Virus record (IMG/VR): IMGVR_UViG_3300021425_000234
Span: 1-20,772 of that record
Reading direction: 5' to 3' (one strand)
Length of the DNA stretch: 20,772 bases
Source: a virus
Positions 4,083 through 20,772 of this stretch are shown here, one piece after another. The stretch's first letter is position 1. Every line of letters starts with the position of its first letter. A model generated the notes under the pieces. It did no database searches and was not told where the DNA came from. It saw nothing but the letters and a program-made list of their open reading frames with translations. The position numbers were made by a program, and so were the translations under genes.

Positions 4083-6280
4083 TGCAGAAAGTAAGAATAC
4101 CACAGAATAGCTTTCAGTACGGCGAAATAAGTGACAACACTGTAATGAGGACTGATAGTCCTATCTATGCTGCCTCTGCGCAAAGCTTAGAAAACATGAT
4201 TGTATTGCCAGAAGGTGCTGTAAAGAAACGTCATGGTGCTAAGTTTCATTATAAAAATACACAAACAAACAAAGAACTGCATTTAGCTCCATTTATATTT
4301 GACGATAATGAAGAGTATATAATTGGTATTGGTGAAGCATACATACTATGTTGGAGAATTACTGCTAATAATGTTGTAACTTTAGTATCTACAATTACAC
4401 AAGATACACAAAGCAATGTGCTGCCGTTTGATAAGGACTACTTGCATCAATACAGCACTGCTCAATATGGTGATGTAATGTTTATATGTCATCCATTGTT
4501 TGCGCCACGTATGCTTACACGTACATCACTTACATCGTTTGAGCTTAGTGTATTTAGCTTTGATACAAGCTATGATGGTAAAGACACGTATCAACCATAC
4601 AGCGTTTTCCATCCTACGAATGTAACTTTTACTGCAAATTCACCTACTATAGGCTCTAACAAAACTTTAACTACAAGTTCAGCGTATTGGGATACAACAG
4701 GTAAACATGTTGGTGTTGTTGTTAGATATGGAAAAAGTGAAATTAGAATAGATTCTGTAACTTCTAGTACAGTTGCGGTTGGTACTATTATAAAAGAGTT
4801 ATCAACAAGATTAACTGTGTCAAACCCTATACGTACAAGAGATGGTAGCAGTACGATTGAAATTACACATATATCACATGGCTTAATAGCAGGTCAGGCA
4901 ATAAGTATATCTGATGCAGTAGCTGTTGGTGGAATAAACGCTAGCAGTATAAATACAACTAGCGCAGATAAAATTATACAAGATGTATTAGATGAAAATA
5001 CATATACAGTTATTGCTGGACAAACTGCAAACGCATCAGAAGATGGTGGTGGTTTTGTAAAGATTACAGCAAATGGGCCAACAGTTGTTTGGGATGAACA
5101 AGCTTTTTCTGCGGTACGTGGTTATCCAGCATCAGTAACATTTCATGAAAACAGATTATGTTTTGGCGGCACTATAGCTGAACCAGATACAATTTGGATG
5201 TCTCAGCTTGGTGAATTTTTTAACTATGATGTTGGTGAAGGTGACGATACAGACTCAATAAACTTAGTAGCTGCTACTGGTGATGTTAATGAAATAAGAT
5301 ATATGAGGTCAAATCGTGACCTACAGATCTTTACACTATCAGATGAGTTGTATGTACCAACATACCTTAACCAAGCTATTACACCTACAAATGCACAAAT
5401 AAGAAAACAAACGCCATTTGGTACTGAGTTTGTATTACCTACCTCTATTGATGGTGCTACTATATTTGTTGAGCGTGGCGGTAGAGCAGTGCGTGAATAC
5501 ATATACTCTGATGCAGAGGATGCTTACATATCTACAGGTGTATCTACAGTTGCAAGTCATACAATAGTTAACCCAGTTGATATAGCAGTAGTGCATTCTG
5601 GATTTAAAACCCAAGAATCTTATGCTGCTTTAGTTATGGGCAATGGTGATATGGCATTGTTTAGCTCTAACAGGGCAGAAAAACGTGCAGCTTGGACAAA
5701 AGTAACAACACAAGGCAACTTCTTAGCTACTGTGTCTGTAGGTGATAGGTTGTTTTATTATGCAAAAGATATAAATAATAACTATGTATTGTCAGAATTT
5801 GTAGATGATATAGGTTTAGATAATTACTTATACGTTGCTTATGGCAATGGAACAGTAAGCGTAAGCAGTTTATATTCTAGCGGTACAGTAGATGTAATTG
5901 GTTATGATGGCACTGATAAGATTTACTTAGGTGAGTTTACTGTAAGTAGTGGTAATATTACTATGACAGCACATAGTAATTATACACATTTCTATGTAGG
6001 TAAAAAATTTACATCTAAAGTAATTACCAATCCAGTAGACACTGTAGCAGCCAATGGGCCAGTAACAGGTGATGTACGCGGCATAAGTACAGTTGTGCTT
6101 AATCTTAAAGATTCTACATCTATTAAAGTAAATAACAGAACTATTAATAATATTACTGGATTTACAGGTAACAAAGAGGTTAGGCTTTTAGGATATAGTA
6201 GAAACCCTCAAGTTACTATCGAACAAGATGATCCCATGCCATTACAAATTAATGGCTTAATATCGGAGTTGATTACATAA
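4082..6280 (+). CDS. Tail tubular protein B / tail nozzle (T7 gp12-like)
   Basis: A 732-residue beta-rich protein expected to form the hexameric nozzle at the tail tip through which DNA leaves the virion. The first 50 residues have the nozzle signature: QNSFQYGEISDNTVMRTDSP, then SLENMIVLPEGAVKKRHGAKF ('G-is--l--R-D---Y--------N--v---G---kR-G--f'). The C-terminus has the typical PVTGDVRGISTVVLNLKDS strand set and ends with the VTIEQDDPMPLQINGLISEL motif that closes this family. T7 gp12 has 794 residues, so length fits. It lies directly between the gp11-like adaptor and the gp14-like internal protein, overlapping both by a single base (TAATG type junctions). Role is strongly supported by motif ends, length and order. 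Confidence 0.9.
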   Translation: MQKVRIPQNSFQYGEISDNTVMRTDSPIYAASAQSLENMIVLPEGAVKKRHGAKFHYKNTQTNKELHLAPFIFDDNEEYIIGIGEAYILCWRITANNVVTLVSTITQDTQSNVLPFDKDYLHQYSTAQYGDVMFICHPLFAPRMLTRTSLTSFELSVFSFDTSYDGKDTYQPYSVFHPTNVTFTANSPTIGSNKTLTTSSAYWDTTGKHVGVVVRYGKSEIRIDSVTSSTVAVGTIIKELSTRLTVSNPIRTRDGSSTIEITHISHGLIAGQAISISDAVAVGGINASSINTTSADKIIQDVLDENTYTVIAGQTANASEDGGGFVKITANGPTVVWDEQAFSAVRGYPASVTFHENRLCFGGTIAEPDTIWMSQLGEFFNYDVGEGDDTDSINLVAATGDVNEIRYMRSNRDLQIFTLSDELYVPTYLNQAITPTNAQIRKQTPFGTEFVLPTSIDGATIFVERGGRAVREYIYSDAEDAYISTGVSTVASHTIVNPVDIAVVHSGFKTQESYAALVMGNGDMALFSSNRAEKRAAWTKVTTQGNFLATVSVGDRLFYYAKDINNNYVLSEFVDDIGLDNYLYVAYGNGTVSVSSLYSSGTVDVIGYDGTDKIYLGEFTVSSGNITMTAHSNYTHFYVGKKFTSKVITNPVDTVAANGPVTGDVRGISTVVLNLKDSTSIKVNNRTINNITGFTGNKEVRLLGYSRNPQVTIEQDDPMPLQINGLISELIT

Positions 6281-19411: not shown

Positions 19412-19900
19412 ATGAAATATTCTTTGGCAATACTTTCACTCTGTGCATTACCAGCATACGCTGATGTAAATATAACAGGTAATGTGGAAGCTAAATGTGT
19501 AATACAAACAACTAAGAATGGTGTGTATGGCAATCCAACAGCTAGTAAATTAAGCACTACCCCTGCTGATGGTGGTGTCTTACCTGTTATTAGGTTTGAT
19601 GTAGCTCTTGCTAATTACTACACAGCAAACATAACACATCCAACATCATTCAGTTCTTCACCAGCACTATCTGATACAGTCACATGGACAGGCAGCACTA
19701 GTGTAACGCAAACAAGTGACGCTGGTATGTCAGGCTATGATGCAGCCAAGATTGTATACGATAATACTACTGTGTTTGATCTAACAGTTGCTGGGTCTAC
19801 ATGGTTTTCTACATCTAGTACCGCTAACTATGCTGCATCTAAACCATTTGTGGGTGGGGTATATACAGCAGTTGTTCAGGCTAGTTGTGTTGCAAAATAA
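19412..19900 (+). CDS. Exported pilin-like / fimbrial-subunit-like protein
   Basis: A 162-residue protein. Residues 1-17 are a signal peptide (MKYSLAILSLCALPAYA, then DV). The mature chain is beta-rich and full of Ser and Thr. Its first strand holds Cys29 (GNVEAKCVIQT) and its last strand Cys159 (GGVYTAVVQASCVAK), placed so that a disulfide could join the two ends. Between them are GVYGNP, DGGVLPVIRFDVALANYY, SFSSSPALSDTVTW and TTVFDLTVAGSTWF. The size, signal peptide, 'G-Y-A-V-A-C' last strand and Thr/Ser content recall secreted Ig-like subunits such as fimbrial pilins and spore-coat-U-like proteins, but no family-defining motif is certain. The next gene encodes a chaperone-like exported protein, which strengthens the idea. 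A virion decoration role cannot be excluded. Confidence 0.75.
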   Translation: MKYSLAILSLCALPAYADVNITGNVEAKCVIQTTKNGVYGNPTASKLSTTPADGGVLPVIRFDVALANYYTANITHPTSFSSSPALSDTVTWTGSTSVTQTSDAGMSGYDAAKIVYDNTTVFDLTVAGSTWFSTSSTANYAASKPFVGGVYTAVVQASCVAK

Positions 19901-20276
19901 GCTGATAATATTTTTTTTGCTATGGGCATTTTCATCCCATGCACATGAGATGACACCAGCTTATCCTATTGTTAAACCATCTCACGTTACTGGTGTGGTC
20001 AAAGTTAACTTGTCTTTGTTTAATTCAAGAGAAGAGATTAAGTATTATCAGATAGATGTATTTGATTTGAACTGGAAGAACATCCCTTTCTCTGCAACGT
20101 ACAGAATAATTAAGGTAGATTACCAATCTCGTAAGAACTTTAGTGTATACATACGAGAATTAGATATGGATGAAGCTGTATATATATGCACCACCTCAAA
20201 GATTAAGAAGCAACTCGAATCAAAAACCTTAGTTTCTTCTAGGATTTGTTCTCGACTTGATGGTATGCCAGCATGA
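19890..20276 (+). CDS. Exported beta-rich protein, possible periplasmic chaperone-like
   Basis: The best start is TTG at 19890 (or GTG at 19887), because it gives a good signal peptide (QNKLIIFFLLWAFSSHA, then HEM) and 128 residues; the first ATG would lie after the cleavage site. The mature protein reads as a single beta sandwich: VVKVNLSLFNSREEIKYYQIDV, then NWKNIPFSATYRIIKVDY, FSVYIRELDMDEAVYICTTS, with cysteines 100 and 120 that could pair. The 'N-----YY-I-vfD--W--Ip----rii-v------f-vyIR' order is like the N-terminal domain of periplasmic pilus chaperones, but it is shorter and has no second domain, so this is an analogy, not a family match. It overlaps the pilin-like gene by 11 bases and shares ATGA with the next gene. 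Confidence 0.68.
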   Translation: MQNKLIIFFLLWAFSSHAHEMTPAYPIVKPSHVTGVVKVNLSLFNSREEIKYYQIDVFDLNWKNIPFSATYRIIKVDYQSRKNFSVYIRELDMDEAVYICTTSKIKKQLESKTLVSSRICSRLDGMPA

Positions 20277-20665
20277 GATTAGCTGCGTTCTTATGCATAC
20301 TGTCTAGCTCTGCGTTTGCTGAGAGTAGTTCTCTTGCATTAACATTGCCTAGTCCACCTATGAATTATCAATCGGATAGTTTCTCTGCAAATAATATGCG
20401 CTGCAGCAATGCGGTAGGTGGTGGCGTTAACCTTGAGTATGGTATTACAGGTGTGCTGTCTGGTTTAAATACAATGAATAGAGGAAAGGATATAGGTGTC
20501 TATGCTCGTATAGTAATACCGCTAGACAAACCTAAGTCTCGTATTAATTGTGATGACCTATACCAAGTGGAGTTAGCGCAGCGTAGGTTAGAGATACAAA
20601 AGCTGCGCGATGAACTGGAGGCGCTAAAGAATTTATCTAATGATAGTATGGACTTTGAGAACTGA
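20273..20665 (+). CDS. Exported cysteine-domain protein with C-terminal coiled coil
   Basis: A 130-residue protein. Signal peptide at residues 1-16 (MRLAAFLCILSSSAFA, then ES). The mature N-terminus, LTLPSPPMNYQSDSFSANNM, runs into Cys44 (MRCSNAVGGGVNLEYGITG). Short strands (DIGVYARIVIPL) and Cys93 (RINCDDL) follow. A charged coiled coil at about 95-122 (VELAQRRLEIQKLRDELEAL) ends the protein. The order SPP, SA, C-[ST]-x-x-V, NC-[DE]-x-L then helix is the same as in the protein at 18051, which suggests duplication of a common domain within the cassette; here the membrane anchor is replaced by the coiled coil. The Cys at 8 lies inside the signal peptide and is not a lipobox. Start and stop overlap both neighbours (ATGA at 20273, TGATG at 20663-20667). 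Function unknown. Confidence 0.75.
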   Translation: MRLAAFLCILSSSAFAESSSLALTLPSPPMNYQSDSFSANNMRCSNAVGGGVNLEYGITGVLSGLNTMNRGKDIGVYARIVIPLDKPKSRINCDDLYQVELAQRRLEIQKLRDELEALKNLSNDSMDFEN

Positions 20666-20772
20666 TGGTAGATCTTACAGAATTTGATAACCTTGCTGAC
20701 AAACAGATCAAAGCTGGTGGCGTTAAGATGTCCTTTGCATCTGTGCTTGCCATCATTACCTTTGTATCTACT
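20665..20772 (+). CDS. Membrane protein, N-terminal fragment, truncated by window end
   Basis: An ATG at 20665 overlaps the stop of the preceding gene (TGATG), and the frame is open for 36 codons to the edge. The visible protein starts VDLTEFDNLADKQIKAGG and then enters a hydrophobic stretch (VKMSFASVLAIITFVST), most likely a transmembrane helix. A short charged N-terminus before a membrane span, at the end of an exported-protein chain, suggests an inner-membrane partner of the preceding proteins. Its full length and function cannot be seen. Confidence 0.65.
   Translation, partial: MVDLTEFDNLADKQIKAGGVKMSFASVLAIITFVST

Follow-up and report, generated by a model that had tools for sequence, protein, structure and literature searches.

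A possible reduced subunit-chaperone pair in a seemingly mobile gene block of phages

In the chaperone-usher pathway, the gene of a pilin subunit adjoins that of an Ig-like partner, and both products start with a signal peptide. Pilins of the pathway have an Ig-like fold without strand G and, ahead of the first Cys, an N-terminal stretch in which hydrophobic residues alternate; the chaperone binds its subunit by donor-strand complementation. Classical subunits of this pathway carry a disulfide between strands A and B. PapD-type chaperones are built of two Ig-like domains; those of the FGL type have an F1-G1 disulfide, on which the complex of chaperone and subunit is reported to depend critically (PMC4133393). 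Another kind of exported fibre is described in marine viruses: phages of SAR11 and OM43 are reported to carry curli (type VIII secretion) clusters, for which the roles proposed include protection from superinfection, sibling capture and the timing of lysis (PMC9599517, PMC7029224, PMC9004378).

Here, I describe two adjoining genes, P3 and P4, in an IMG/VR virus record of 20,772 nucleotides (hereafter the window, meaning the whole stretch analysed). As in the chaperone-usher pathway, a subunit-like gene adjoins that of an Ig-like partner and both products have signal-peptide-like starts; the N-terminus of P3 may resemble that of chaperone-usher pilins, and P4 has two Cys at the predicted equivalent of the F1-G1 disulfide site of FGL chaperones. 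The pair differs from the pathway in that P4 has one domain where PapD-type chaperones have two, no usher was found, neither protein has a Pfam match, both are phage-encoded, and the second Cys of mature P3 lies near the C-terminus. With phage curli, the gene block P1-P6 that contains the pair would share the character of an envelope-fibre-type block of marine phages common to several phage families, but its proteins and its machinery are different. The reading tentatively preferred here, at somewhat less than even confidence, is that of a reduced subunit-chaperone pair, P3 with P4, within a mobile phage block that acts in the host envelope.

Read from its open reading frames, the window carries genes for portal, scaffold, capsid, tail tubes, internal proteins and fibre, in this order; P3 and P4 belong to a fixed series, P1-P2-P3-P4-P5-P6, placed between tail fibre and lysis genes (Table 1); the preliminary description of the pair made no mention of this wider block. 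P2 overlaps P1 by 65 bases, and the start of P5 overlaps the end of P4 as ATGA. Matches to PHROG families were obtained for P1 (phrog_20531, E 8.5e-14), P3 (phrog_25895, E 1.2e-5) and P5 (phrog_37374, E 5.7e-9); the P4 of the window has no match to phrog_25455, and sequence searches of phage records with P2 and with P3 returned none. Relatives of P1 are found in SAR11 and Roseobacter phages (E 1e-40 to 2e-15 with its own profile), and its Cys-containing region also occurs in SAR11 phages, including myophage Mosig, and, in a Roseobacter phage, in a protein annotated as OmpA family. A kinship of P2 and P6 with SAR11 phage proteins, suggested by position and, for P6, by an NPLA-type C-terminus seen by eye, was set aside, profiles failing to confirm it. 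The window capsid protein has its closest phage-record match in Pelagibacter phage Hodr (53%); no P4 match was detected in Hodr, MEP301 or Vibrio phage 1.138.O. The locus tags of two phage records look swapped, that of Hodr (OQ414635.1) being tagged EXVC032PBaldr and that of Baldr (OQ414636.1) EXVC031PHodr. Between the scaffold-like and capsid genes of the window, a gene of 173 aa (2044-2565) has by eye the look of an acetyltransferase-type insert.

Table 1. Features of the P1-P6 block, in window coordinates.
Feature	Coordinates	Strand	Characters or basis
P1, 184 aa	18051..18605	+	signal-peptide-like start, four Cys, C-terminal hydrophobic stretch
P2, 287 aa	18541..19404	+	signal-peptide-like start, two Cys in N-terminal half, acidic run
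P3, pilin-like, 162 aa	19412..19900	+	signal-peptide-like start, donor-strand-like N-terminus, modelled as all beta apart from one short helix
N-terminal extension of mature P3 to first Cys, DVNITGNVEAKC	19463..19498	+	alternating hydrophobics, central Gly
P4 start codons GTG and TTG, inside P3 3' end	19887..19892	+	sequence, junction survey
P4, chaperone-like, 128 aa	19890..20276	+	signal-peptide-like start, single Ig-like domain
P5, 130 aa	20273..20665	+	signal-peptide-like start, two Cys beyond it, C-terminal coiled-coil-like region (by eye)
P6 start, membrane anchor and coiled-coil-like, cut by window end	20665..20772	+	sequence

Relatives of the block keep this order. Wherever the flank suffices, P4 stands beside P3 (193/193, and 196/196 counted from P4), P4 beside P5 (184/184), P3 beside P2 (193/193) and P2 beside P1 (176/176), in loci that were chosen through searches with P2, P3 or P4 (best 80, 70 and 80 matches) and some of which share one contig. 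All five genes P1-P5 are complete in 154 loci, 92 of them distinct, and P6 comes next after P5 in all 82 distinct loci that extend 2,500 bases or more downstream. The pattern P1 P2 P2 P2 P3 P4 P5, seen in 5 of 213 loci, reflects a broken P2 or an assembly error. Downstream of P6, many relatives continue with an EF-hand membrane-protein gene and then with holin-like and lysozyme-like genes (names given by eye); the small EF-hand-like membrane protein lies between P6 and the holin-like gene in 72 of the 82 distinct loci (e.g. at 5789-6106 of locus L300).

Distance matrices over the 92 distinct loci correlate at r 0.73 for P3-P4, 0.84 for P4-P5 and 0.73 for P3-P5, at 0.65 for P2-P3, 0.71 for P2-P4 and 0.73 for P1-P2, and at 0.47, 0.45 and 0.38 for P1 with P3, P4 and P5, respectively; the tie between P3 and P4 is no closer than that between P4 and P5. 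The idea that these matrices separate P1-P2 from P3-P4-P5 as two units was dropped, P2 being tied both ways (r 0.62-0.73); such a split is drawn solely from the places where the genes occur apart.

The block itself is found in quite different surroundings. In 115 of the 213 loci it is, within the stretch fetched, the sole similarity to 14 tested window proteins; the window capsid protein is matched in 3 of the 24 longer carrier records picked, the other 21, some of which may be fragments, being without a match; and the gene upstream of P1 varies among 12 loci inspected by eye (portal-, stabilisation- or fibre-like, and lambda J-like in locus L190). Since few carriers match the window capsid, the block seems to be passed from one phage type to another. 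The same observations bear on the alternative offered by the preliminary description, namely that P3 and P4 are two virion proteins with no more than a resemblance to a pilin and its chaperone. They could then be, for example, fibre or decoration subunits; they do lie among structural genes and adjoin long fibre-like genes in both groups of phages considered (that of the window and that of Vibrio, see below), and Ig-like domains are common on phage virions. Tailed phages, however, assemble in the cytoplasm, from which the conserved signal-peptide-like starts would export both proteins; given these starts, the carriers of non-matching capsid and the differing upstream genes, a virion role is improbable.

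The preliminary description also held that P4 starts from a codon other than ATG, inside an 11-base overlap with P3, and the junction bears this out. The program-made open reading frame of P4 opens at 19788 and its stop ends at 20276; the start is set at TTG (19890), or at the in-frame GTG one codon upstream (19887), because only these give an N-terminal signal peptide, the next in-frame ATG of the window lying past it. The overlap is of 11 bases (19890-19900) from TTG and of 14 from GTG. Among 127 distinct P3/P4 junctions, the window included, TTG stands at -11 in 117 and GTG at -14 in the other 10; the start is non-ATG in all 127, no ATG falls within the overlap in any of them, and in 34 an in-frame ATG occurs 16 bases past the P3 stop, within the signal peptide. 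Of 99 distinct junctions, 81 have AGG within the 12 bases preceding the TTG position, a frequency partly due to the constraint on codons there. Such a geometry fits coupled translation. In the Vibrio phages pVp-1, K251 g3, K450 and D81 the annotated overlap is of 16 bases, and the P4 of Ceto and Achelous starts with ATG, in contrast to the TTG or GTG of the window group. Both genes are under purifying selection, the median dN/dS against the window being 0.11 over 140 pairs of P3 and 0.13 over 92 pairs of P4.

The P3 precursor opens with the signal-peptide-like MKYSLAILSLCALPAYA, followed by a mature chain of 145 residues, the cleavage site being placed by eye. The protein is, as first described, rich in Ser and Thr (26.9% of the mature chain and 25.3% of the precursor; the precursors of P1, P2, P4 and P5 have 13.6-15.8%), with Cys near both ends, at precursor residues 29 and 159, outside the signal peptide. 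Its mature N-terminus reads D-V-N-I-T-G-N-V-E-A-K-C; among E. coli K-12 pilins, mature FimG starts A-D-V-T-I-T-V-N-G-K-V-V-A-K-P-C and mature YcbV H-D-G-T-V-N-I-S-G-S-F-R-R-N-T-C. In the AlphaFold2 model of P3 (mean pLDDT 89.8) residues 1-10 average 55, and the N-terminus is predicted to be a disordered, donor-strand-like segment. In an alignment of 36 rows, of which 33 are pelagic, I4, G6, V8 and K11 each reach 90% conservation or more; where 8 of 41 rows come from Vibrio phages, conservation persists only at V8 and C12.

A model of the pilin N-terminus, made from 14 E. coli K-12 pilins, was run on 3,970 distinct phage open reading frames, of which 104 are P3. Relatives of P3 fill at least 57 of the top 100 rows, aligned at the mature N-terminus and below significance; the best of them ranks 6 (E 3.4), with five unrelated frames above, the P3 rows matched are close relatives and amount to one family, and none of the labelled Vibrio P3 appears in the top 100. 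A profile match between Vibrio P3 and K-12 pilins (probability 85.9, residues 1-40) was discounted, as it includes the signal peptide.

In structure searches with the P3 model, 19 of the 50 rows listed by Foldseek are chaperone-usher subunits, a PapG pilin domain holding rank 1 at a weak E of 2e-3. VIA-align returned other proteins, mostly beta folds (Z 6.1-8.2), with no chaperone-usher pilin among its 50 rows, and a search of BFVD structures gave nothing at E <0.001. The A-B disulfide of classical pilins has no counterpart in P3, the second Cys of which is residue 142 of 145 in the mature chain; were the mature Cys pair bonded, it could close the groove that a donor strand needs. One may then ask whether P3 could be a secreted beta protein complete in itself, similar to an adhesin or a carbohydrate-binding protein, with P4 a neighbour that plays no chaperone role towards it. 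The VIA-align rows, which include carbohydrate-binding modules and adhesin domains (Z 6-8), and the high mean pLDDT of P3 modelled alone agree with this; the fact that P3 and P4 never separate and co-occur in Vibrio phages, and the alternating hydrophobics retained in the disordered N-terminus, speak against it, and of the explanations weighed here it is the least probable.

P4 was first described as a single-domain protein, and its mature 110 residues do model as one Ig-like domain of seven strands (AlphaFold2, mean pLDDT 80.5), the second Ig-like domain of PapD-type chaperones being missing. By eye, the 36 full-length rows among 37 share a signal-peptide-like start, i.e. a hydrophobic stretch followed by a cleavage site of short residues. 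Cys 100 and 120 are invariant and fall in the predicted strands F and G. With the P4 model, Foldseek lists PapD-type chaperones more often than any other group, in 29 of 50 rows (Caf1M, SfaE, FaeE, DraB, FimC and PapD, many rows repeating chains of few proteins); the best of them is at rank 3 (E 2.3e-3), behind a copper-only SOD subunit at rank 1 (E 7.9e-4) and, at rank 2, a FixG-related protein (E 2e-3). That two Foldseek searches, one per protein, point to both partners of one pathway is suggestive and not proof, given TM-scores of 0.3-0.55, weak E-values and the abundance of chaperone-usher structures in the PDB. VIA-align is ambiguous for P4: chaperones (Z 7.5-8.3, rmsd 3.2-4.2, 96-104 residues) score level with other Ig-like folds or lower, unrelated Ig-like domains reaching Z 10.1 (rmsd 2.5, 93 residues).

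Sequence comparisons gave less. PapD_N (PF00345) has no match in P4 at E 1, nor in any of 5 records at E 10, and hhalign of P4 against eight K-12 chaperones reached a probability of at most 2.7%. P3 and P4, taken singly and as profiles, found chance-level matches or none among PDB sequences, and NCBIfam gave chance-level matches only, one Vibrio P4 hitting a fimbrial-like adhesin at E 0.04, far below the cut-off.

A core of three genes, P3-P4-P5, recurs in the same order in the Vibrio phages pVp-1, Brizo, K450, D81, K251 g3, pVco-14, vB_VhaS-tm and 1.205.O, where P4 measures 131-137 aa, signal peptide included; the Vibrio PHROG trio 25895-25455-37374, of unknown function, resembles P3-P4-P5 in gene order and sizes. 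By tblastn, Vibrio P4 (E limit 0.1) found 179 records and Vibrio P3 (E limit 1) also 179, the comparison being one of counts. No relatives of P1 or P2 were detected in the Vibrio phage records, and none of six P1-bearing SAR11 and Roseobacter phage records has a P4 match; the trio and P1 therefore occur apart. In pVp-1 and Ceto, a small lipoprotein-like gene comes after P5.

The kinship between the pelagic and the Vibrio proteins was examined with mature profiles of pelagic sequences only, run against the 3,970 frames. With the P5 profile, the P5 of all 8 Vibrio loci was recovered (E 1.3e-9 to 1.9e-7); with the P3 profile, two Vibrio P3 (E 9e-6 and 0.0017) beat the best unrelated frame (0.076) and the rest failed; with that of P4, 7 of 8 Vibrio loci scored E 0.05-1.5, six of them ahead of the best unrelated frame (0.53). 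These P4 matches being weak, the homology of P4 between the two groups leans on gene order. Pairwise BLASTP of the window P4 with a Vibrio P4 gave no alignment, and hhalign of pelagic against Vibrio alignments gave 19.3% or 78.0% for P4, depending on direction, and 95.3% for P3, most of the rows including signal peptides. The Vibrio P4 alignment found no relative in GTDB contigs. P3 is present in two GTDB bins, of Rhodobacteraceae (FZLS01000109.1) and Porticoccaceae (DNBN01000021.1, residues 1-76 only, at the contig end); these may be binned phage DNA, and they do not fix the host. For PVo5, a relative of pVp-1 that may or may not carry the block, one gene with a predicted signal peptide is reported (PMC4932687), which tells somewhat against the preferred reading.

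The position of the trio raises another explanation: P3, P4 and P5 might be a stoichiometric envelope complex for lysis or disruption of the outer membrane, in which the Ig-like fold of P4 is structural and no chaperone is involved. Many relatives have the block before membrane-anchored P6 and the EF-hand, holin-like and lysozyme-like genes (by eye), the trio comes shortly before holin and endolysin in pVp-1 and Brizo, and P4 tracks P5 above P3 in the distance matrices. Two-component spanins, by comparison, include an outer-membrane lipoprotein partner, whereas no lipobox Cys is apparent by eye in the window's own P3, P4 or P5, so that none of the three is a classical outer-membrane spanin; moreover, in K251 g3 and pVco-14 the trio sits before head-tail genes. 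A lysis complex appears somewhat less likely than the preferred reading.

The reading of P3 and P4 as a reduced subunit-chaperone pair, which the preliminary description had proposed, gains from their inseparability as neighbours, the signal-peptide-like starts seen by eye, the pilins and chaperones found by Foldseek, the donor-strand-like N-terminus of P3 and the invariant Cys of P4 in predicted strands F and G. A plain chaperone-usher system is less probable: there is no usher match in 31 records and no PapD_N match, the structural E-values are weak, the second aligner is ambiguous, and the second Cys of P3 is at the C-terminus. The usher family (PF00577) was matched in 0 of the 31 records at E 1, some of these being fragments, and the E. 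coli control was positive; an usher may be supplied by the host. The CsgG pore (PF03783) was likewise matched in 0/31 records at E 1, some of them fragments.

As a reduced pair, the two proteins could work as follows. In the periplasm, the last strand of P4, made rigid by an F-G disulfide like that of FGL chaperones, would bind P3 and keep it competent for assembly; the N-terminal strand of P3 would then join a partner, either another P3 or P5. No usher having been found, assembly would be spontaneous, proceed via host machinery or be confined to the periplasm. The most likely outcome, and the weakest step of the scheme, would be a short fibre or complex by which the envelope of an infected cell is remodelled or blocked ahead of lysis, for instance against superinfection or against the loss of progeny to receptors on debris; this envelope role is suggested by export, by the position near lysis genes and by the spread across capsid types. 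A more specific proposal, to be held with greater reserve, is that phages possess a minimal usher-less pathway, consisting of a half-size PapD-type chaperone, one pilin-like subunit and P5 as anchor, which is passed as a cassette between unrelated phages and gives rise to a donor-strand fibre or complex, either within the envelope of the infected host or on progeny as they pass out through it. Among the titles listed in keyword searches of the open literature, none describes such a phage pair.

To sum up, if the reading of P3 and P4 as a subunit and its chaperone is true, phages would harbour a form of donor-strand assembly that needs no dedicated usher and only half a chaperone. As the block is found with different capsid genes, what it targets in the host envelope is probably a shared feature. 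Marine viruses would then have a second kind of exported fibre-type system, beside phage curli, and the three PHROG families of unknown function (25895, 25455 and 37374) would receive a role open to testing.
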